Below are positions 29,000 to 36,489 of a stretch of DNA of 64,000 nt, in pieces. Under the pieces are notes generated by a model. That model worked only from the letters and a program-made list of their open reading frames with translations, was not told where the DNA came from and ran no database searches. The stretch spans positions 124,001 to 188,000 of the forward strand of contig NZ_MUYG01000008.1 in assembly GCF_002155425.1 (NCBI RefSeq), given 5' to 3'. Within the stretch, counting starts at the first letter, position 1; each line of letters opens with the position of its first letter. The position numbers and the translations under genes were made by a program. Source of the stretch: Erythrobacter donghaensis. GTDB lineage: Bacteria; Pseudomonadota; Alphaproteobacteria; Sphingomonadales; Sphingomonadaceae.

Positions 29000-30280
29000 A
29001 TGGTCGATTCACCCCCCAATCCGGCACCGCACGCGCCTGCCTCGCAAGCGGGTGCTCCCCGCGGCGACGCCGCCCCGCTCGATGTCGCTATCGTCGGCGG
29101 CGGGCTGGCCGGCGGGCTGATCGCGCTCGCGCTGCACCGCCACGCGCCCGGCTGCCGCTTCGTGGTGATTGAGGCGGGCCGGACATTCGGCGGGCACCAC
29201 CGCTGGAGCTGGTTCGAAACCGACATCCGCCCAGGCGCGCGCGGGCTGATGGCAGGCTTCCAGCTCAATGGCTGGGACGAAGGCTACGACATCACCTTCC
29301 CCGCCTATGGCCGCACCCTGCCGACCGGCTATCGCTCGCTCGCCAGCGCCGAATTCCACCGCGCATTGATGGACGAACTGCCCGGCGAATGCGTGATGCT
29401 GGGCACCAAGGCCGCCAGCCTTGATGCGGGCGGCGTGACGCTGAGCGATGGGAGCCGGATCGCGGCAAAGCGCGTGATGGATTGCCGTCCCTTCGCTCCG
29501 TCCAAGGCGCTGTCGGGCGGTTGGCAGGTGTTCCTCGGCCAGCAATATCGCTGCGAGACGCCGCACGGCCTCACCCGCCCTGTGATCATGGATGCGAGCG
29601 TCGACCAGCTTGCCCCCTACGGCAATGGCGAGGCCTATCGCTTCGTCTATGTCCTGCCGCTGTCGCCCACCGATGTCTTCATCGAAGACACCTACTATGC
29701 CGATCAGCCGAAAATGGACGCCGAGGTGCTGAAGGGCCGCATCGCCGAATATGCCCACCACAAGGGCTGGAAGGGCGAAATCGTCGATCAGGAAGCGGGC
29801 ATCCTGCCGGTGATCTCGGGCGGAGATTTTGGCGCAGCCAGCGCCGAGGTCGCAATCCCCGGTGTCGCGCTGGCAGGCGCGCGCGGCGGCTTTTCGCACC
29901 CGCTCACCAGCTACACCGTGCCGTTCGCGGTCGATAATGCGCTGGCAATCGCCCACCTTCTCGCCCGCAAGCCCGACCTTTCGGGCGCGGAGCTTGCCGC
30001 CTTCTGCCAGCGCCGCGCCAAGCGCCACTGGCGCACGACGGCCTATTACCGGATGCTCAGCCGGATGCTGTTCGAGGCCGCCGAGCCGGGCAAGCGGGTG
30101 GTGGTGTTCGAACATTTCTACGCGCTGCAAGGCCGGCTGGTGGAGCGCTTCTACGCAGGCAAGTCGACCTGGCCCGATCGCCTGCGCATCCTTACCGGCA
30201 AGCCGCCCGTAGCTATCCCCCGCGCGATCCGCGCGCTATTTTCTTCAGGCAAGCCCCTCAACATGGAGACCCCGGCATGA
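29000..30280 (+). CDS. crtY: lycopene beta-cyclase
   Basis: A 426-residue flavoprotein that cyclises lycopene to beta-carotene. The nucleotide-binding motif is VAIVGGGLAGGLIALAL near residue 30. CrtY signatures follow: FGGHHRWSWFETD, VFIEDTYYAD and GGFSHPLTSYTVPFAVDNAL. GCAGAGG lies five bases before the ATG; an in-frame TTG at 28997 is ignored. A 28-residue Ala/Pro-rich N-terminal extension is unusual. It opens the carotenoid operon, and its stop overlaps crtI by ATGA. Confidence 0.95.
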   Translation: MVDSPPNPAPHAPASQAGAPRGDAAPLDVAIVGGGLAGGLIALALHRHAPGCRFVVIEAGRTFGGHHRWSWFETDIRPGARGLMAGFQLNGWDEGYDITFPAYGRTLPTGYRSLASAEFHRALMDELPGECVMLGTKAASLDAGGVTLSDGSRIAAKRVMDCRPFAPSKALSGGWQVFLGQQYRCETPHGLTRPVIMDASVDQLAPYGNGEAYRFVYVLPLSPTDVFIEDTYYADQPKMDAEVLKGRIAEYAHHKGWKGEIVDQEAGILPVISGGDFGAASAEVAIPGVALAGARGGFSHPLTSYTVPFAVDNALAIAHLLARKPDLSGAELAAFCQRRAKRHWRTTAYYRMLSRMLFEAAEPGKRVVVFEHFYALQGRLVERFYAGKSTWPDRLRILTGKPPVAIPRAIRALFSSGKPLNMETPA

Positions 30281-31839
30281 ACGCCGATGCGAAGCTGAAC
30301 CTTTCGGGTGCGAAAGGCGTGAACCCGGCGCTGGCCGAACGCTATGCCGGCCGCACCGCCTGCGTGATCGGATCGGGCTTTGGCGGCATGGCGCTCGCCA
30401 TCCGGCTGCAATCGGCCGGGATCACCACCACCGTGATCGAAAGCCGCGACAAGCCGGGCGGGCGCGCCTATTTCTGGGAGCGTGACGGCTTCACCTTCGA
30501 CGGCGGGCCGACGGTGATCACCGATCCGCCCTGTCTCAAGGAACTCTGGGCGCTGACCGGCCACGACATCGCCGAAGATGTCGAACTGATGCCGGTGATG
30601 CCTTTCTACCGCCTCAACTGGCCCGACGGCACGAATTTCGACTATTCGAACGACGAAACGAGCCTCAACGCCGAGATCGCCAAGCTCAATCCGGCGGATG
30701 TCGCGGGCTATGCGCGCTTCCTCGAATATTCCGAGCGGGTCTACAAGGAAGGCTACCTGAAGCTCGGCACCGTGCCGTTCCTCGATTTCAAATCGATGCT
30801 GAAGGCCGCGCCTGCGCTGATCAAGGAGCAGGCCTGGCGTTCGGTCTACGGCATGGTTTCCAGCTATGTCGAGAACGAGAAGCTGCGCGAGGCGCTGAGC
30901 TTCCACACGCTGCTGGTCGGCGGCAACCCGATGAACACCTCGTCGATCTATGCCCTGATCCACAAGCTCGAAAAGGACGGCGGCGTGTGGTGGGCGCGCG
31001 GCGGGACCAACCGGCTGATCGCGGGCATGGTCCGCCATTTCGAGCGTTTGGGCGGCACGATGCGCGTCGGCGATCCGGTGGTGCAGGTGCACACGCTGGG
31101 CACCAAGGCCACGGAAGTCGAGACCAAGAGCGGCTTCCGCCAGCGCTTCGATGCGGTCGCCAGCAATGCCGACATCATGCATTCCTACAAGGATCTGATG
31201 TCAAACAGCGCGCGCGGCAAGCAGATGGCGAAGTCGCTGAACCGCAAGAGCTACAGCCCCTCGCTCTTCGTCGTCCACTTCGGGCTGGAGGGCACCTGGC
31301 CGGGCATCCCGCATCACATGATCCTGTTCGCCAAGCGCTACAAGGGCCTGCTGGACGACATCTACAAGAACGGCGTCATCCCGGAAGATTTCGCGATCTA
31401 CCTCCACCACCCGACCGTCAGCGACCCCTCGATGGCCCCGGCAGGCAAGAGCACCTTCTACGCGCTCGTCCCCGTCAGCCACATGGGCAAGATGCCGCTG
31501 GACTGGGACGAGGTCGGCCCCAAGCTTGAAAAGATGATCCTCGACGAGCTCGGCCGCCGGTTGATCCCCGACATCCACGACCGGATCGTCACCAAGTTCA
31601 GCTACGCGCCCACAGACTTCAAGGCCGATCTCAACGCCCACATGGGCAGCGCCTTCAGCCTCGAGCCCGTACTGTGGCAGAGCGCCTGGCTGCGCGGCCA
31701 CAACCGCGATGACGTGATCGACAACTACTACCTCGTCGGCGCGGGCACGCACCCCGGCGCAGGCATCCCCGGCGTGGTCGGCAGCGCCAAGGCCACCGCC
31801 GGCCTGATGCTGGAGGATCTCGCCAAGGTGCCTGCGTGA
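30277..31839 (+). CDS. crtI: phytoene desaturase
   Basis: A 520-residue FAD enzyme that converts phytoene to lycopene. The N-terminal dinucleotide motif is VIGSGFGGMALAIRLQSAGI, followed by ESRDKPGGRAYFWERDGFTF and DGGPTVITDP. The bacterial CrtI C-terminal signature HPGAGIPGVVGSAKATAGLM is complete. The start overlaps crtY and the stop overlaps the next gene (GTGA), indicating one transcript. Length is typical. Confidence 0.97.
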   Translation: MNADAKLNLSGAKGVNPALAERYAGRTACVIGSGFGGMALAIRLQSAGITTTVIESRDKPGGRAYFWERDGFTFDGGPTVITDPPCLKELWALTGHDIAEDVELMPVMPFYRLNWPDGTNFDYSNDETSLNAEIAKLNPADVAGYARFLEYSERVYKEGYLKLGTVPFLDFKSMLKAAPALIKEQAWRSVYGMVSSYVENEKLREALSFHTLLVGGNPMNTSSIYALIHKLEKDGGVWWARGGTNRLIAGMVRHFERLGGTMRVGDPVVQVHTLGTKATEVETKSGFRQRFDAVASNADIMHSYKDLMSNSARGKQMAKSLNRKSYSPSLFVVHFGLEGTWPGIPHHMILFAKRYKGLLDDIYKNGVIPEDFAIYLHHPTVSDPSMAPAGKSTFYALVPVSHMGKMPLDWDEVGPKLEKMILDELGRRLIPDIHDRIVTKFSYAPTDFKADLNAHMGSAFSLEPVLWQSAWLRGHNRDDVIDNYYLVGAGTHPGAGIPGVVGSAKATAGLMLEDLAKVPA

Positions 31840-32255
31840 CAGCGCTGCTCGCCGCTCTGCTGGCGGGGACGGTGTCCATGATGGGCCCCTCCCCGCTCGC
31901 CGACCTCGGGCATGCGCCGCAGTGGCAATCACTCCCGGTCGACGATCAGGGCGAGGGCTGGATCGATCCGACCTGGCATCAGCAGGCCGAAGTCGATGGA
32001 CGGCCCGTGGAACTGGTGCTGGTGCGCATGAACCTCACCGATTCCGACGGCAAGCCGATGCTCTTCGATGCGATCATGGCGGTCGATTGCCCTGCACAGA
32101 CCATCGGGATGAAGGAAAGCTGGCTGTTCCTGTCGCGCTATGGCGACAACCGGCGCGCGCCGATCACGACGATCGACATGACCTTCGCCAGCACCCCGCC
32201 TTCCATCGGAGATCTCGCGCTGCTGGCCCACGCCTGTACTGGAGAGCGGAAATAA
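31836..32255 (+). CDS. hypothetical exported protein in the carotenoid operon
   Basis: A 139-residue protein with a GTG start overlapping the crtI stop. The N-terminus MTALLAALLAGTVSMMGPSP can be a weak signal peptide. The remainder contains GWIDPTWHQQAEVDGRPVEL and AIMAVDCPAQTIGMKESWLF, which suggest a small beta-rich domain with two cysteines. No family recognised. Its stop codon abuts the left repeat of the DUF559 element, so the original continuation towards the LOG gene may have been interrupted there. Confidence 0.62.
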   Translation: MTALLAALLAGTVSMMGPSPLADLGHAPQWQSLPVDDQGEGWIDPTWHQQAEVDGRPVELVLVRMNLTDSDGKPMLFDAIMAVDCPAQTIGMKESWLFLSRYGDNRRAPITTIDMTFASTPPSIGDLALLAHACTGERK

Positions 32256-32727
32256 TCCTCCCCTTCAGGGGAGGGGGACCACCGAAGGTGGTGGAGGGGC
32301 GCGCGATGATCAGAGGCCAGAGAGACACCGTCAAAATCGCCCGGAAGCTTCGCGCGGAGATGACTCCGCCTGAAATCGCACTTTGGCAAGCACTGCGAAA
32401 GAGACCGGGCGATCACAAGTTTCGACGACAGCATCCAGCGGGAATTTATGTGCTCGATTTCTTCTGCGCAAAAGCCCAGTTGGCAATCGAAGTCGATGGA
32501 CGGGGTCACGACGCGCCGGCCGTAATCGCCAACGATCAGGCGCGATCGCGGTTTCTTCGGGAGAACGGAATTGCGACGACCCGCATTCCAGCAAAACTTG
32601 TGCTTGAAGATATCGAGGCGGTGGTTAGGCGGCTGGTGCAAATCTGTGACGAAAGACTGGAAGGCATGACCTGCTCGCCCCTCCCCCATCCTGCGGATGG
32701 TCCCCCTCCCCTTGCAGGGGAGGATTT
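32256..32727. mobile_element. DUF559 endonuclease gene enclosed in inverted repeats
   Basis: Left repeat 32256-32302 and right repeat 32676-32727 are inverted copies of a two-hairpin unit: CCTCCCC-loop-GGGGAGG, GG, a second hairpin (ACCACC-GAA-GGTGGT on the left), then GGAGGGGCG. The only gene between is the DUF559 nuclease. The same unit pair, without a gene, lies at 36363-36487. No target duplication could be recognised. Mobility is inference. Confidence 0.55.
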
Positions 32728-32731
32728 ATGA
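32306..32731 (+). CDS. DUF559 endonuclease-fold protein (Vsr-like)
   Basis: A 141-residue protein starting MIRGQRDTVKIARKLRAEMT. DUF559 signatures: TPPEIALWQALRKRPGDHKF, RRQHPAGIYVLDFFC and LAIEVDGRGHDAP. The PD-(D/E)xK-type site is formed by E23, D51, E62 and D64, as in the very-short-patch repair nuclease. The last 20 or so residues (CSPLPHPADGPPPLAGEDL) are encoded by the right repeat, and the stop overlaps the LOG start (ATGA). It interrupts an otherwise carotenoid-type operon. DUF559 proteins are often linked to repeats in this order; biochemical role unknown. Confidence 0.85.
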   Translation: MIRGQRDTVKIARKLRAEMTPPEIALWQALRKRPGDHKFRRQHPAGIYVLDFFCAKAQLAIEVDGRGHDAPAVIANDQARSRFLRENGIATTRIPAKLVLEDIEAVVRRLVQICDERLEGMTCSPLPHPADGPPPLAGEDL

Positions 32732-33309
32732 AACGCCTCGCCATCTATTGCGGATCGGCCTCGCCCGAGGATCCGCGCTATGTCGAACTGGCCTACGCGG
32801 TCGGCGCCGAACTCGCCGCGCGCGGCATCGGGCTCGTCTATGGCGGGGGCAAACTGGGCCTCATGGGCGCGGTCGCCAAGGGCGCGAAGGCAAACGGCGG
32901 CGAGGTGATCGGCATCATTCCCGAAAGCCTCGTGCGCGCCGAGGTTGCCAATCACGACTGCGACGAACTCGTCACCGTGTCGGGCATGCACGAAAGGAAG
33001 CAGCGCTTCACCGATCTCTCGGACGGCTTCATCACCATCCCCGGCGGGGTGGGCACGATGGACGAGCTGTGGGAAGCGATGAGCTGGTCGCAGTTGGGCT
33101 ATCACTCCAAGCCCGTCGGCCTGCTCAACGCTTTCGGCTTCTACGACGATCTGCTTGCCTTCAACGCCAAGATGGCGGCGGTCGGCTTCGTGCGGCCCGC
33201 GCATCAGAACATCCTGATCGCGGCGACCTCGATCCACGAATTGCTCGCCAAGATGGAGGCCTATCAGCCCCACACCCCGATCTTCCGCATGAAGGCCGAG
33301 GAGCTCTAA
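32728..33309 (+). CDS. LOG family protein (cytokinin riboside 5'-monophosphate phosphoribohydrolase-like)
   Basis: A 193-residue Rossmann-type protein of the TIGR00730 group. MKRLAIYCGSASPEDPRY opens it, LVYGGGKLGLMGAVA follows, and the active-site signature PGGVGTMDELWEA lies near residue 108, with HERKQRF before it. Plant LOG enzymes release free cytokinin; bacterial homologues hydrolyse AMP-like nucleotides. The Shine-Dalgarno GGGGAGG (32717-32723) belongs to the right repeat of the DUF559 element. It sits between crtI and crtB, as in several sphingomonad carotenoid clusters, probably without a direct role in pigments. Confidence 0.92.
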   Translation: MKRLAIYCGSASPEDPRYVELAYAVGAELAARGIGLVYGGGKLGLMGAVAKGAKANGGEVIGIIPESLVRAEVANHDCDELVTVSGMHERKQRFTDLSDGFITIPGGVGTMDELWEAMSWSQLGYHSKPVGLLNAFGFYDDLLAFNAKMAAVGFVRPAHQNILIAATSIHELLAKMEAYQPHTPIFRMKAEEL

Positions 33310-33400: not shown

Positions 33401-34390
33401 GTGAGCATTTCCCCCGAACGCCGCGCCGCGCTGGTCGAGCACGCCCGGCTGGCGATCAAGCGCGGCTCGCAGAGCTTCTCCGCCGCCGCGCGCCTGTTCG
33501 ACCGCGAGACCCGCGAGCGCGCCTGGCTGCTCTACGCCTGGTGCCGCCGGGCGGACGACATTGCCGACAATCAGGACATGGGCGGTGAGCTGGGCGACCA
33601 GTCCGACCTTGCCGAACGCCTCGCGCGCATCCGCCGCCTGACCGCGCTCGCTTTCGAGGGCAAGCCGACGGGTGATCCGGCCTTCGATGCCTTGGGCGTG
33701 GTGGCCGCCGAGGTTGGCCTCACGCCCCAGATGGCCGAGGACGTCATCGCCGGCTTCCAACTGGACGCCGAGGACTGGCGCCCGCGCACCGAGGCGGACA
33801 TGCTGCGCTATTGCTACCATGTGGCGGGCGCGGTCGGCGTGATGATGGCGGTGGTGATGGGGGTTTCGCCAGAGGATCAGGAAACGCTCGACCGGGCGAA
33901 TGACCTCGGCCTCGCCTTCCAGCTTTCGAACATCGCACGCGACATCGTCGAGGATGACGCGGCGGGGCGCTGCTACCTGCCGATGGAGTGGCTCGCCGAA
34001 CAGGATATCGAGCCCGGCCAGCACACCAAGCCGCATCACCGTTCCGAACTCGCCGAAATGGCCGCGCGGCTGGTCGCGCTGGTCGAGAAGCACGAGGCCG
34101 CAGCGCGGGTGGGCGCGGCCAAGCTCCCCTTCCGCAGCCGCTGGGCGGTGCTCTCGGCGGCGCGCATCTATGGCGCGATCGGCCGCAAGGTGAGGAAGCG
34201 CGGGCCCGAGGCGTGGAACAGCCGCACCTATGTGCCGCGCGGCGAAAAGGCGCTGTATGGCGTGCGCGCGTTTCTCTCGGCGGTGATAAACCGCGAGAAG
34301 ATGCCCGCGGGCGGGATCGACTGGGGGATTGCGGACTATCGGCCCGCTTCCTTGTCTTCTGGTCCGCCCCAACCGTCTGCCCGGGCTTGA
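33401..34390 (+). CDS. crtB: phytoene synthase
   Basis: A 329-residue enzyme joining two geranylgeranyl diphosphates. GTG start; first aspartate-rich motif WLLYAWCRRADDIADN, then LRYCYHVAGAVGVMMAVVMG, and second motif FQLSNIARDIVEDDAAGRCY. The last 12 residues (LSSGPPQPSARA) are encoded by the next intergenic repeat, which supplies the stop codon, so the natural C-terminus was probably shorter or different. Closes the carotenoid cluster. Confidence 0.96.
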   Translation: MSISPERRAALVEHARLAIKRGSQSFSAAARLFDRETRERAWLLYAWCRRADDIADNQDMGGELGDQSDLAERLARIRRLTALAFEGKPTGDPAFDALGVVAAEVGLTPQMAEDVIAGFQLDAEDWRPRTEADMLRYCYHVAGAVGVMMAVVMGVSPEDQETLDRANDLGLAFQLSNIARDIVEDDAAGRCYLPMEWLAEQDIEPGQHTKPHHRSELAEMAARLVALVEKHEAAARVGAAKLPFRSRWAVLSAARIYGAIGRKVRKRGPEAWNSRTYVPRGEKALYGVRAFLSAVINREKMPAGGIDWGIADYRPASLSSGPPQPSARA

Positions 34391-34496: not shown

Positions 34497-36362
34497 ATGA
34501 TCACCAAACTTCTGATCGCCAACCGCGGCGAGATCGCCTGCCGGATCATGCGCACCGCGCGCAGCATGGGGATCGCGACGGTCGCGGTCTATTCCGATGC
34601 CGACGCCAAGGCGCTGCATGTGCGGAGCGCCGACGAGGCGGTGCATATCGGCCCCTCGCCCGCTGCCGAAAGCTATCTGGTCGGCGCGAAGATCATCGCG
34701 GCGGCCAAGCAGACGGGCGCGGATGCGATCCATCCGGGCTACGGGTTCCTCTCGGAGAACGCCGACTTCGCGCAGGCCGTGATCGACGCAGGGCTGATCT
34801 GGGTCGGCCCCAAGCCTGCCAGCATCCGCGCCATGGGCCTCAAGGACGCGGCCAAGCAGCTGATGCGCAGCGCGGGCGTGCCGGTGACGCCGGGCTATGA
34901 CGGATCGGACCAGTCGGTCGAGCGGCTGACCAAGGAGGCCGAAGCGATTGGCTACCCCGTGCTCATCAAGGCGGTCGCGGGCGGTGGCGGCAAGGGGATG
35001 CGCAAGGTCGATGCCCCCTCCGATTTCGCCGCCGCGCTCGAATCCTGCCGCCGCGAGGCCAAGGCCAGCTTCGGCAATGATGAAGTGCTGCTCGAAAAGT
35101 GGATCACCTCGCCCCGCCATATCGAGGTGCAGGTGTTCGGCGACAGCCACGGCAACGTCGTCCACCTGTTCGAGCGCGACTGCTCGCTCCAGCGCCGTCA
35201 CCAGAAGGTGATCGAGGAAGCCCCCGCCCCCGGCATGGACGCGGCCACCCGCGAAGCCATCTGCGCCGCCGCCGTGCGCGCCGCCAAGGCGGTGGACTAC
35301 GAGGGCGCAGGCACGATCGAATTCATCGCCGATGCCAGCGAAGGCCTGCGCGCCGACCGCATCTTCTTCATGGAGATGAACACCCGCCTTCAGGTCGAAC
35401 ACCCCGTCACCGAGGAAATCACCGGGGTCGATCTGGTCGAATGGCAGTTGAGGGTCGCGAGCGGGGAGCCGCTGCCCAAGCGGCAAGACGAGCTGTCGAT
35501 CAACGGCTGGGCTATGGAAGCGCGGCTCTATGCTGAAGACCCGGCGAAAGGGTTTCTGCCGAGCACGGGCACGCTTCAATCCTTGTATTTCGGACATGAG
35601 CCCGATTGGGTTCGCATCGAAACGGGTGTGCTTCGAGGTAGCGAGATTTCCCCTTTCTACGATCCGATGATCGCTAAGGTCGTTGTGCATGGTGCATCGC
35701 GTGACGAGGCACGCGAACGGCTGCTCGGGGTGCTTGATGAACTGCAGGTCTGGCCGGTCAAATCCAATGCCCCCTTTCTTTATAAGCTTGCGGAGCTCGA
35801 AGGCTTCGCAAGTGGCGACGTCGACACTGGCATCATCGAACGTCAGGGCGAGAGCTTGCAAGCGCTGTCCGAACCAGATCCCGACTTTCTGTCATGGTGG
35901 GCCGAAACCATCACCCCGGCATATTCGCCCTTTGCATTTCGTTTGAATTCCGCCCCGCAGACGAGATCTTATGTTCTTGTGGACGGCGAGCCTATCGAAG
36001 TCGAATTGCGAAGTGCGGGCGAAAGCCGCGTGAAGCATATCGACGGAGAGACGCTGCTCACCAATCGCGGTCGGACCTTCAAATTGTCTAGCTGGCGCGC
36101 CGACGCAGGAGGCCAAGCCTCCGCCGCCGATGGCGCGATCATTGCGCCGATGCCGGGCAAGGTCATCGCGGTCGATATCGCCGAGGGCCAGACCGTCACC
36201 GCCGGGCAGCGGCTGATGGTGCTCGAGGCGATGAAGATGGAGCACGCTCTACCTGCGCCCTTCGACGGGGTGATCGAGGGGCTGACGGTGAGCGCAGGCG
36301 CGCAGGTGCAGGTTGACGCGGTGCTGTGCCGGGTGGTGCCTGCGTCGGGTGATGAGGCGTGA
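34497..36362 (+). CDS. acyl-CoA carboxylase alpha subunit (biotin carboxylase + biotin carrier)
   Basis: A 621-residue subunit. Residues 1-450 form the biotin carboxylase: LLIANRGEIACRIMRTARSM, AIHPGYGFLSENADFA, GGGGKGMRKV (ATP-grasp) and EMNTRLQVEHPVTEEITGVD. The carrier domain ends the protein, with the biotinylation site LEAMKMEH (K at about residue 581). The class is acetyl/propionyl/methylcrotonyl-CoA carboxylase. Bases about 35510-36100 show different codon use (CTT, TTG, CGA, AAA more frequent) from both flanks, suggesting recombination. The stop lies at the edge of the next repeat. Confidence 0.92.
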   Translation: MITKLLIANRGEIACRIMRTARSMGIATVAVYSDADAKALHVRSADEAVHIGPSPAAESYLVGAKIIAAAKQTGADAIHPGYGFLSENADFAQAVIDAGLIWVGPKPASIRAMGLKDAAKQLMRSAGVPVTPGYDGSDQSVERLTKEAEAIGYPVLIKAVAGGGGKGMRKVDAPSDFAAALESCRREAKASFGNDEVLLEKWITSPRHIEVQVFGDSHGNVVHLFERDCSLQRRHQKVIEEAPAPGMDAATREAICAAAVRAAKAVDYEGAGTIEFIADASEGLRADRIFFMEMNTRLQVEHPVTEEITGVDLVEWQLRVASGEPLPKRQDELSINGWAMEARLYAEDPAKGFLPSTGTLQSLYFGHEPDWVRIETGVLRGSEISPFYDPMIAKVVVHGASRDEARERLLGVLDELQVWPVKSNAPFLYKLAELEGFASGDVDTGIIERQGESLQALSEPDPDFLSWWAETITPAYSPFAFRLNSAPQTRSYVLVDGEPIEVELRSAGESRVKHIDGETLLTNRGRTFKLSSWRADAGGQASAADGAIIAPMPGKVIAVDIAEGQTVTAGQRLMVLEAMKMEHALPAPFDGVIEGLTVSAGAQVQVDAVLCRVVPASGDEA

Positions 36363-36487
36363 TCCTCCCCGGAACGGGGAGGGGGACCACCGCAGGTGGT
36401 GGAGGGGACTCGCCGCAAGCACAGCCCTCAACCGGGAGTCCCCTCCGTCAGCGCTGCGCGCTGCCACCTCCCCGTGCCGGGGAGGAT
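36363..36487. repeat. gene-less doublet of the CCTCCCC repeat family
   Basis: Left unit 36363-36410 (CCTCCCC-GGAAC-GGGGAGG, ACCACC-GCA-GGTGGT, GGAGGGGACT) and inverted right unit 36437-36487 (AGTCCCCTCC ... CCTCCCCGTGCCGGGGAGG) are separated by 26 bases. The outer hairpins agree with the DUF559-enclosing repeats at 32256 and 32676. The right end GGGGAGG is the ribosome-binding site of the carboxylase beta gene. Confidence 0.85.
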
Positions 36488-36489
36488 CG

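Follow-up and report, generated by a model that had tools for sequence, protein, structure and literature searches.

A DUF559 nuclease gene between inverted triplex-type repeats in a carotenoid operon: a candidate mobile nuclease-repeat partnership

The window, a stretch of 64,000 nucleotides from Erythrobacter donghaensis, contains a group of carotenoid genes interrupted by a small open reading frame that is enclosed by two repeats (Table 1). This reading frame matches PF04480 with an E-value of 3.4e-23 and 82 bits, against a Pfam gathering cut-off of 20.6, and the claim of the initial annotation that only a DUF559 gene lies between inverted copies of one unit is borne out by the inverted-repeat search, the open reading frames and Pfam. 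The inverted arms join positions 32254-32277 with 32703-32726 (83% complementary), 32267-32281 with 32698-32712 (100%) and 32289-32304 with 32673-32688 (88%). The name crtI, carried over from the same annotation, fits the Amino_oxidase match and a neighbourhood that includes lycopene cyclase and phytoene synthase genes.

Table 1 Genes and repeat units in and near the nuclease element (positions in the window)
Feature	Position	Strand	Basis and details
crtI-type phytoene desaturase gene	30277..31839	+	ORF; Pfam Amino_oxidase 8.7e-41; upstream neighbour
Small gene, 139 aa	31836..32255	+	ORF; without Pfam family at E 0.001
Left repeat unit, predicted class II triplex motif	32254..32302	+	Pyrimidine arm (Y) CCTCCCC 32257-32263; purine arm (R) GGGGAGG 32268-32274; second hairpin region 32275-32292; third strand GGAGGGG 32293-32299
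DUF559 (PF04480) nuclease gene, 141 aa	32306..32731	+	ORF from ATG to stop; Pfam; AlphaFold2; Foldseek
Right repeat unit, inverted copy	32676..32727	-	Predicted triplex motif 32678-32723; codes nuclease C-terminus
LOG family gene (Lysine_decarbox)	32728..33309	+	ORF; Pfam
crtB-type phytoene synthase gene (SQS_PSY)	33401..34390	+	ORF; Pfam
Gene-less inverted pair, left unit	36364..36407	+	Type as left unit of nuclease element
Gene-less inverted pair, right unit	36440..36485	-	First hairpin arms and third strand shared; second hairpin differs

The nuclease reading frame runs through the right repeat, and its stop codon overlaps the start codon of the LOG gene (ATGA). At 32716-32731 the right unit terminates in GGGGAGGATTT, which resembles a ribosome-binding site and stands directly 5' of the LOG ATG. 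By way of this ribosome-binding-site-like end and the TGA/ATG overlap, the insertion may keep translation of LOG going.

What kind of repeat encloses the gene? The initial annotation described the unit as two hairpins, and minimum-energy folds of the single-stranded DNA do contain two hairpins in each unit; however, the unit is more than its hairpins. It opens with a CCTCCCC/GGGGAGG hairpin, continues with a second hairpin and closes with GGAGGGG, which is the exact mirror of GGGGAGG, and this sequence of pyrimidine arm, purine arm and third strand identifies the window units as predicted class II intrastrand-triplex motifs of the BoxC/PIT/TM kind. A triplex finder run at a threshold of 11 returned four motifs in the window, two around the DUF559 gene and two in a gene-less pair 4 kb away; the threshold was chosen after the window units had been seen to score 11.0-11.1, and the window repeat type therefore sits at the threshold. 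The excess of folding over shuffled sequence is modest, since 9 of 200 and 3 of 200 shuffles fold equally well, and the centroid fold of the right unit retains the first hairpin alone. Between 31500 and 37000 no Rfam family was found at gathering score. Searches of the window for single motifs had mixed outcomes: when up to 3 mismatches were allowed, CCTCCCCTNNAGGGGAGG matched at 3 positions, one of them elsewhere, versus 0.42 expected (1 of 100 shuffles reached 3), the AGGGGAGGGGGACCRNC pattern gave 5 versus 2.10 (4 of 100 shuffles), and the GGTGGTGGAGGGG pattern gave 16 versus 2.29, with exact matches in 2 of the 16, both within the units. Recurrence around other DUF559 genes is the stronger test.

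The stretch that contains the gene-less pair, 36362-36488, folds as a single long hairpin with a z-score of -9.25. The pair had been taken for the same unit pair without the gene, which holds for its left unit, 97% identical to the left unit of the nuclease element over 32 nt, and only in part for its right unit, whose second hairpin has another sequence (TGGCA..TGAC). The strict T1 pattern finds only 3 units in this genome, a low copy number unlike that of REPs, and 122 copies in 26 of the 61 genomes of the genus. By hand count, 11 pairs of T1 copies lie within 100 bp of one another, all 11 inward-facing and 14-48 bp apart, and the remaining copies are single by the strict pattern or flank genes. 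Of the 11 gene-less T1-type pairs compared (10 T1 pairs and the window pair), 10 start with ATCCTCCCC and 8 finish with GGGAGGAT, which are the outer ends of the gene-bearing element. Nine gene-less T2 pairs were read, of which 4 face inward and 5 outward, so that these pairs are not simply the gene-bearing form minus its gene. The second-hairpin arms of T1 occur in 25 distinct forms, with complementarity kept in 79 of 84 pairs (at most 64 in any of 1000 shuffles), and what this hairpin conserves seems to be its structure, not its sequence.

The enclosed enzyme was annotated at the outset as a Vsr-like PD-(D/E)xK nuclease, and the predicted fold and the sequence profile agree on this point. 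The AlphaFold2 model (pLDDT 83.4) found as its best Foldseek match 3hrl, an endonuclease-like protein (1.5e-5), followed by the Vsr-like homing endonuclease I-Bth0305I (8.1e-4), with a mitoribosomal protein at a similar E-value, and the profile search also matched the I-Bth0305I structure 3r3p (E=0.003); E. coli Vsr was absent from the best 50 Foldseek hits. The predicted DUF559 fold thus resembles that of a Vsr-like homing endonuclease and falls within the PD-(D/E)XK / Vsr-like class. We take the I-Bth0305I group to be that of the EDxHD homing endonucleases. D51 and H68 are invariant and E62 and D64 near-invariant, and these residues form the putative active site. Values of dN/dS between the window gene and close homologues were 0.03-0.11 in 7 of 8 pairs, rough estimates with dS above 1 (one pair gave no value), which places DUF559 under purifying selection as judged from these alignments. 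A phage origin was considered and set aside: two phage records matched, both with less than 40% identity. In a paper of 2005, YcjD, the DUF559 protein of E. coli, already counts among the established members of the PD-(D/E)XK superfamily, and its profile picks up Vsr (PMC1189080).

If the element was inserted, relatives should show the site without it, and the insertion had been said to split crtI and its small partner from LOG. LOG loci were read in 30 of the 57 species with a match. DUF559 lies between crtI and LOG in 6 of the 30, with at least the left unit above threshold, and 22 of the 30 have neither DUF559 nor motif there. In these element-free relatives crtI or its small partner runs into LOG: in 15 of the 22 no more than 29 bp separate LOG from the end of what can be recognised of the preceding gene, and the homologue of the small gene stops ~8 bp before it in L211 and L219. 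The near-abutment of these genes in relatives supports the split. In one further genome (G010, L207:1126-1504) a left unit whose third strand is worn precedes a barstar-family gene (PF01337), which is followed by LOG, with the right unit missing, and one of the 30 loci fits no category. In G004 and G026 DUF559 directly adjoins LOG by coordinates. By eye, no convincing target-site duplication was seen at crtI-LOG; L206 has TTCGTGA/TTCATGA, possibly stop and start codons, and the other filled sites read are without duplication. The copies at this site across related species may represent one old insertion.

A fundamental question is whether the repeats accompany DUF559 genes in general. In the 61 genomes of the genus, PF04480 matches fall into class A (75-136 bits; 45 matches in 30 genomes, patchy), which keeps D, ExDG and H, and class B (44-63 bits; 56 matches, about one per genome), which lacks ExDGxxH in the 20 translations read and served as an internal control. 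The class B paralogue (L003 / L053, L048-L067) may have been domesticated as a protein without catalytic activity. Within class A, one gene (L043) is interrupted by an in-frame stop. The sample comprised 45 of 45 class A loci, all 66 matches above 90 bits from other alphaproteobacterial genera (the partial domains L134-L136 were not among the tested loci), 27 loci from other classes of the phylum, taken from among the matches listed, and 18 further alphaproteobacterial loci out of many more matches, with L183 and L184 outside the tested set; L028 and L099, where the contig ends, were dropped from these 156, leaving 154. Class B was represented by 20 of its 56 loci, and three partial genus matches of ~22 bits were omitted. 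At L183, in another alphaproteobacterium (G332:C10:206937-219545), a stretch of ~10 kb on a single contig contains three DUF559 matches.

Inverted repeats in the 250-bp flanks exceeded all 200 dinucleotide shuffles per locus at 36/44 class A loci of the genus and 42/65 loci of other alphaproteobacterial genera, as against 0/20 class B loci; in stretches 600 bp further out the same test gave 0/41, 8/62 and 0/20, respectively. In the 300-bp flanks of the strong-match DUF559 loci of Pseudomonadota, the triplex finder placed a motif on at least one side of 143 of the 154 and on both sides of 98, leaving 56 without a motif on at least one side and 11 without on either. By set, at least one side carried a motif at 42/44 loci in the genus, 61/65 in other genera of the class, 25/27 in other classes (among the matches listed) and 15/18 in further Alphaproteobacteria, and the third strand of the nearest motif pointed toward the gene in 205 cases and away in 36. 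Motifs occurred in 4 of 303 distant stretches and, for class B, at 0/20 loci and in 0/40 control stretches; these class B loci and distant flanks rule out chance GC-rich hairpins as the explanation. A lack of such flanks at DUF559 genes elsewhere had been named beforehand as the outcome that would count against the association, and the search returned the opposite, 143/154 flanked loci against 4/303 controls.

The association is not confined to these sets. A search of named genomes with the window protein gave 19 loci, of which 15 carry a motif no further than 300 bp from the edge of the match. Close relatives (Erythrobacter, Porphyrobacter and two metagenome bins) had the motif at 7 of 8 loci, scored upstream only because the match itself contains the right unit; Bacteroidota had it at 5 of 6 loci, two of these on both sides, with four of the six loci presumably of this phylum, as we assigned them from genus names. 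Motifs were also present at Brevundimonas, Buttiauxella and Sphingomonas-bin DUF559 loci, and at 0 of 2 loci in one Caulobacteraceae bin. Separately from the 154, nine hand-picked plasmid loci out of 38 records, from Sphingomonadaceae (2), Cyanobacteriota (5) and Deinococcota (2), were scanned at a laxer setting (arm 6, score 9.5), which gave motifs on both sides in 8 of 9 versus 1 of 18 control stretches; at L262 the motifs lie inside one long annotated CDS. Plasmid DUF559 genes (L259, L260, L263) are found between carboxylase subunit genes, between transhydrogenase subunit genes and between paaD and paaZ. The association of DUF559 with predicted triplex repeats thus reaches far beyond the sphingomonads, to well over 100 places in many bacteria.

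Does each nuclease go with a repeat of its own? Distinct class A subfamilies have distinct repeat sequences, even inside one genome; G001 holds four subfamilies, each with its own repeat type, and G070 several types. Protein identity and repeat similarity are correlated in the genus (Mantel r 0.69; 43 loci; reached by 0 of 1000 permutations) and outside it (r 0.36; 96 loci; 0 of 300 permutations), also for pairs below 60% identity (r 0.35). L195 was excluded from alignment A2 since the stretch translates with a stop. Across the 61 genomes, T1 repeats occur in 14/14 with a T1-type gene vs 12/47 without, and removal of the gene-flanking copies leaves 12/14 vs 12/47 (p 8e-5). For T2 the counts are 9/10 with the gene vs 15/51 without, and 7/10 vs 15/51 after the same removal (p 0.02), a weak dependence. 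T3 occurs in 6/6 vs 1/55, and its association is gone when flanking copies are removed (1/6 vs 1/55, p 0.19). The BoxC core GGGAGAGGGNNNGGGTGAGGG was found in 33 of 60 phylum genomes with a strong DUF559 (best E no worse than 1.1e-16, a cut chosen by hand, as were the subfamily patterns) vs 12 of the 139 others (Fisher 6e-12; 199 genomes), with 674 vs 121 copies, and two genomes (G253, G257) account for 298 of the 674; a search with the reversed pattern found 1 match in the phylum genomes. BoxC-type copies are thus present in 12 genomes without strong DUF559, and the BoxC-core type was not found in the genome of the window. All these p-values are inflated, as genomes and loci are related by descent and the events are not independent. 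Some repeat-rich genomes have no strong or cognate DUF559 among the matches: G346 (65 BoxC-type copies), G094 (28 BoxC-type) and G025 (25 T2). The earlier proposal that the repeat family is tied to DUF559 as REPs are to RAYTs therefore finds support in coevolution and co-occurrence, more weakly for some types.

The BoxC/PIT/TM repeats themselves came to notice in E. coli during the 1990s and have been reported from more than 260 genomes, with origin and function unexplained; in the available text of PMC4666352 they are described as free of transposon, phage and plasmid association and without a linked gene class. The same source gives PIT/BoxC units as lacking promoter or terminator activity and reports the TM_ECO triplex as demonstrated in vitro, as single strand only. 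The 23 TM_ECO motifs of E. coli K-12 MG1655 are spread over 18 places, and no. 9 is the one at 1351204-1351239 (PMC4666352, Table 1). The DUF559 gene of this strain, ycjD (1351407-1351760; PF04480, 167 bits), lies 168 bp from motif no. 9, and by eye a decayed second copy appears to lie at its stop codon. With 18 places in 4.64 Mb, the chance of a TM_ECO within 300 bp of one given gene is, by hand calculation, ~0.4%. The main text of PMC4666352, so far as it was available, mentions neither ycjD nor an endonuclease, and among the matches listed from the open-access PMC literature no paper joins DUF559, ycjD or COG2852 to BoxC, PIT or triplex repeats. In one E. coli control genome the PF04480 profile search named no match. 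The ycjD region is at least 80% covered in 3333 of 5426 E. coli genomes; in one strain (L238, ETEC6) ycjD is split by an IS1 copy. The fabI locus was considered as a clean empty site and rejected, since in the two strains read without ycjD there (L234, L235) an efflux operon beside fabI, such as has been reported in E. coli (PMC12817139), occupies the position that ycjD has in K-12.

How, then, would a nuclease and a three-stranded repeat belong together? We hypothesize that the nuclease gene and its two inverted triplex-forming repeats are one genetic element, and that the gene-less inverted pairs are its non-autonomous relatives. The DUF559 enzyme would recognise its cognate unit once this has folded, in single-stranded or extruded DNA, into a hairpin plus third strand, and would nick or cut there; repair of the break, templated by another copy of the element, would copy the element or keep it, and such a homing-like cycle would spread gene-bearing and gene-less pairs between intergenic sites. 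Its sequence-based support consists of the nuclease domain, the inverted repeats, repeat types that go with the nuclease subfamilies, outer ends that gene-bearing and gene-less pairs have mostly in common, and the element-free relatives. We consider a mobile nuclease-repeat partnership of this kind, which would work like REP-RAYT with unrelated parts and without being a member of it, to be probable, with cleavage and mobility as the steps that we infer.

The main rival is homing into existing repeats, in which pairs spread by other means, DUF559 cuts them in the middle and is copied in, and the gene-less pairs are empty homing sites. A homing endonuclease, I-Bth0305I, is among the nearest solved folds, the nearest units face inward in 205 of 241 cases, most gene-less T1 pairs share outer ends with gene-bearing ones, and the crtI-LOG site of G010 carries a left unit but no DUF559 gene, all of which this rival would accommodate. 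However, 22 of 30 species have neither gene nor units at that site, and the enrichment of non-flanking T1 copies in genomes with the matching gene (12/14 vs 12/47) is more naturally explained by an enzyme that spreads the repeats as well, and we regard homing into existing pairs as unlikely. Regulation or insulation, with the repeats as terminators or operators of the nuclease gene and the other copies as chance or unrelated terminators, would explain why hairpins flank both sides of the gene and why the right unit gives the ribosome-binding-site-like GGGGAGGA before LOG. It is very improbable in view of the gene-less inverted pairs scattered in genomes, the reported inactivity of PIT/BoxC units as promoters or terminators (PMC4666352) and a third strand that would be superfluous for a terminator.

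Plain hitchhiking would have a third agent, a RAYT or other transposase, move the repeats, with DUF559 as a captured passenger kept for DNA repair or defence. Purifying selection on DUF559 fits such a role, as does VsrA, the Vsr-like DUF559 protein of Caulobacter, which is reported to lie behind DNA damage and to be required by a methyltransferase mutant for its SOS response (PMC12907096). Against this, a passenger should not match the repeats by subfamily, and a search for the Y1 transposase family (PF01797) found no member in this genome and located the family in only 4 of the 61 genomes of the genus (G002, G007, G013, G037). The genome with the most Y1 matches, G002, has no T1, T2 or T3 copy, whereas the other three carry a few T1 or T2 copies; a RAYT as the agent is disfavoured, and hitchhiking in general is quite unlikely. 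The partnership between nuclease and repeat remains our preferred reading, and the mixed orientation of T2 pairs and the T1 or T2 copies in three Y1-bearing genomes slightly lower our confidence in it, with hitchhiking marginally up.

The DUF559 domain is widespread and still labelled as of unknown function, and its link to a repeat gives both enzyme and repeat testable roles, for which the matching of types to subfamilies supplies cognate and non-cognate pairs for the bench. If the partnership is true, the pairing of a repeat with an enzyme, as in REP-RAYT, would extend to an unrelated enzyme class, and it would seem that intrastrand-triplex DNA can be recognised by a nuclease. A broader proposal, which we put forward tentatively as possible, is that DUF559 nucleases, including YcjD, are the missing enzymes of BoxC/PIT/TM, and that enzymes and repeats jointly constitute a minimal mobile element of wide distribution, present in Pseudomonadota, Bacteroidota, Cyanobacteriota and Deinococcota at the least, whose nuclease would read a three-stranded fold at its own ends and spread both itself and gene-less palindromic pairs.

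Among known systems, I-Bth0305I shares the fold family, but 3r3p was deposited as a mobile intron protein, whereas the window gene is stand-alone and framed by repeats, with no intron noted. VsrA likewise has the DUF559 Pfam domain and is Vsr-like; it differs in its proposed role in mismatch repair, and the available text describing it does not mention repeats (PMC12907096). Using the features of REP-RAYT given in PMC2817692, the likeness lies in a single enzyme gene flanked by two inverted palindromic repeats, in gene-less inverted doublets as in REPINs, and in cognate repeats that evolve in step with the enzyme and are more frequent in genomes that have it, though here this is weak for T2 and non-significant for T3 without flanking copies. 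Flanking is claimed as 'always' for RAYTs (PMC2817692), as against 98 of 154 DUF559 loci flanked on both sides. RAYTs are tyrosine HUH (Y1) enzymes and DUF559 a PD-(D/E)XK nuclease; REPs carry a GT(A/G)G head (GTAG), whereas the window units, by reading, begin with ATCCTCCCC and end with GGAGGGG; and the DUF559-linked repeat is a triplex motif of lower copy number in this genus. The relationship between REP doublets and RAYTs drawn in the initial annotation is therefore sound as an analogy, with neither Y1 enzyme nor GT(A/G)G head to make the element a member. BoxC/PIT/TM repeats share the order of Y arm, R arm and third strand, present here as CCTCCCC, GGGGAGG and GGAGGGG, and likewise occur singly or in inverted pairs. 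The window type differs from them in an extra hairpin between the R arm and the third strand, with a second loop of 18-20 nt against the 1-6 nt allowed by ITxF (PMC4666352); many triplex types at other DUF559 loci have a second loop of 2-4 nt.
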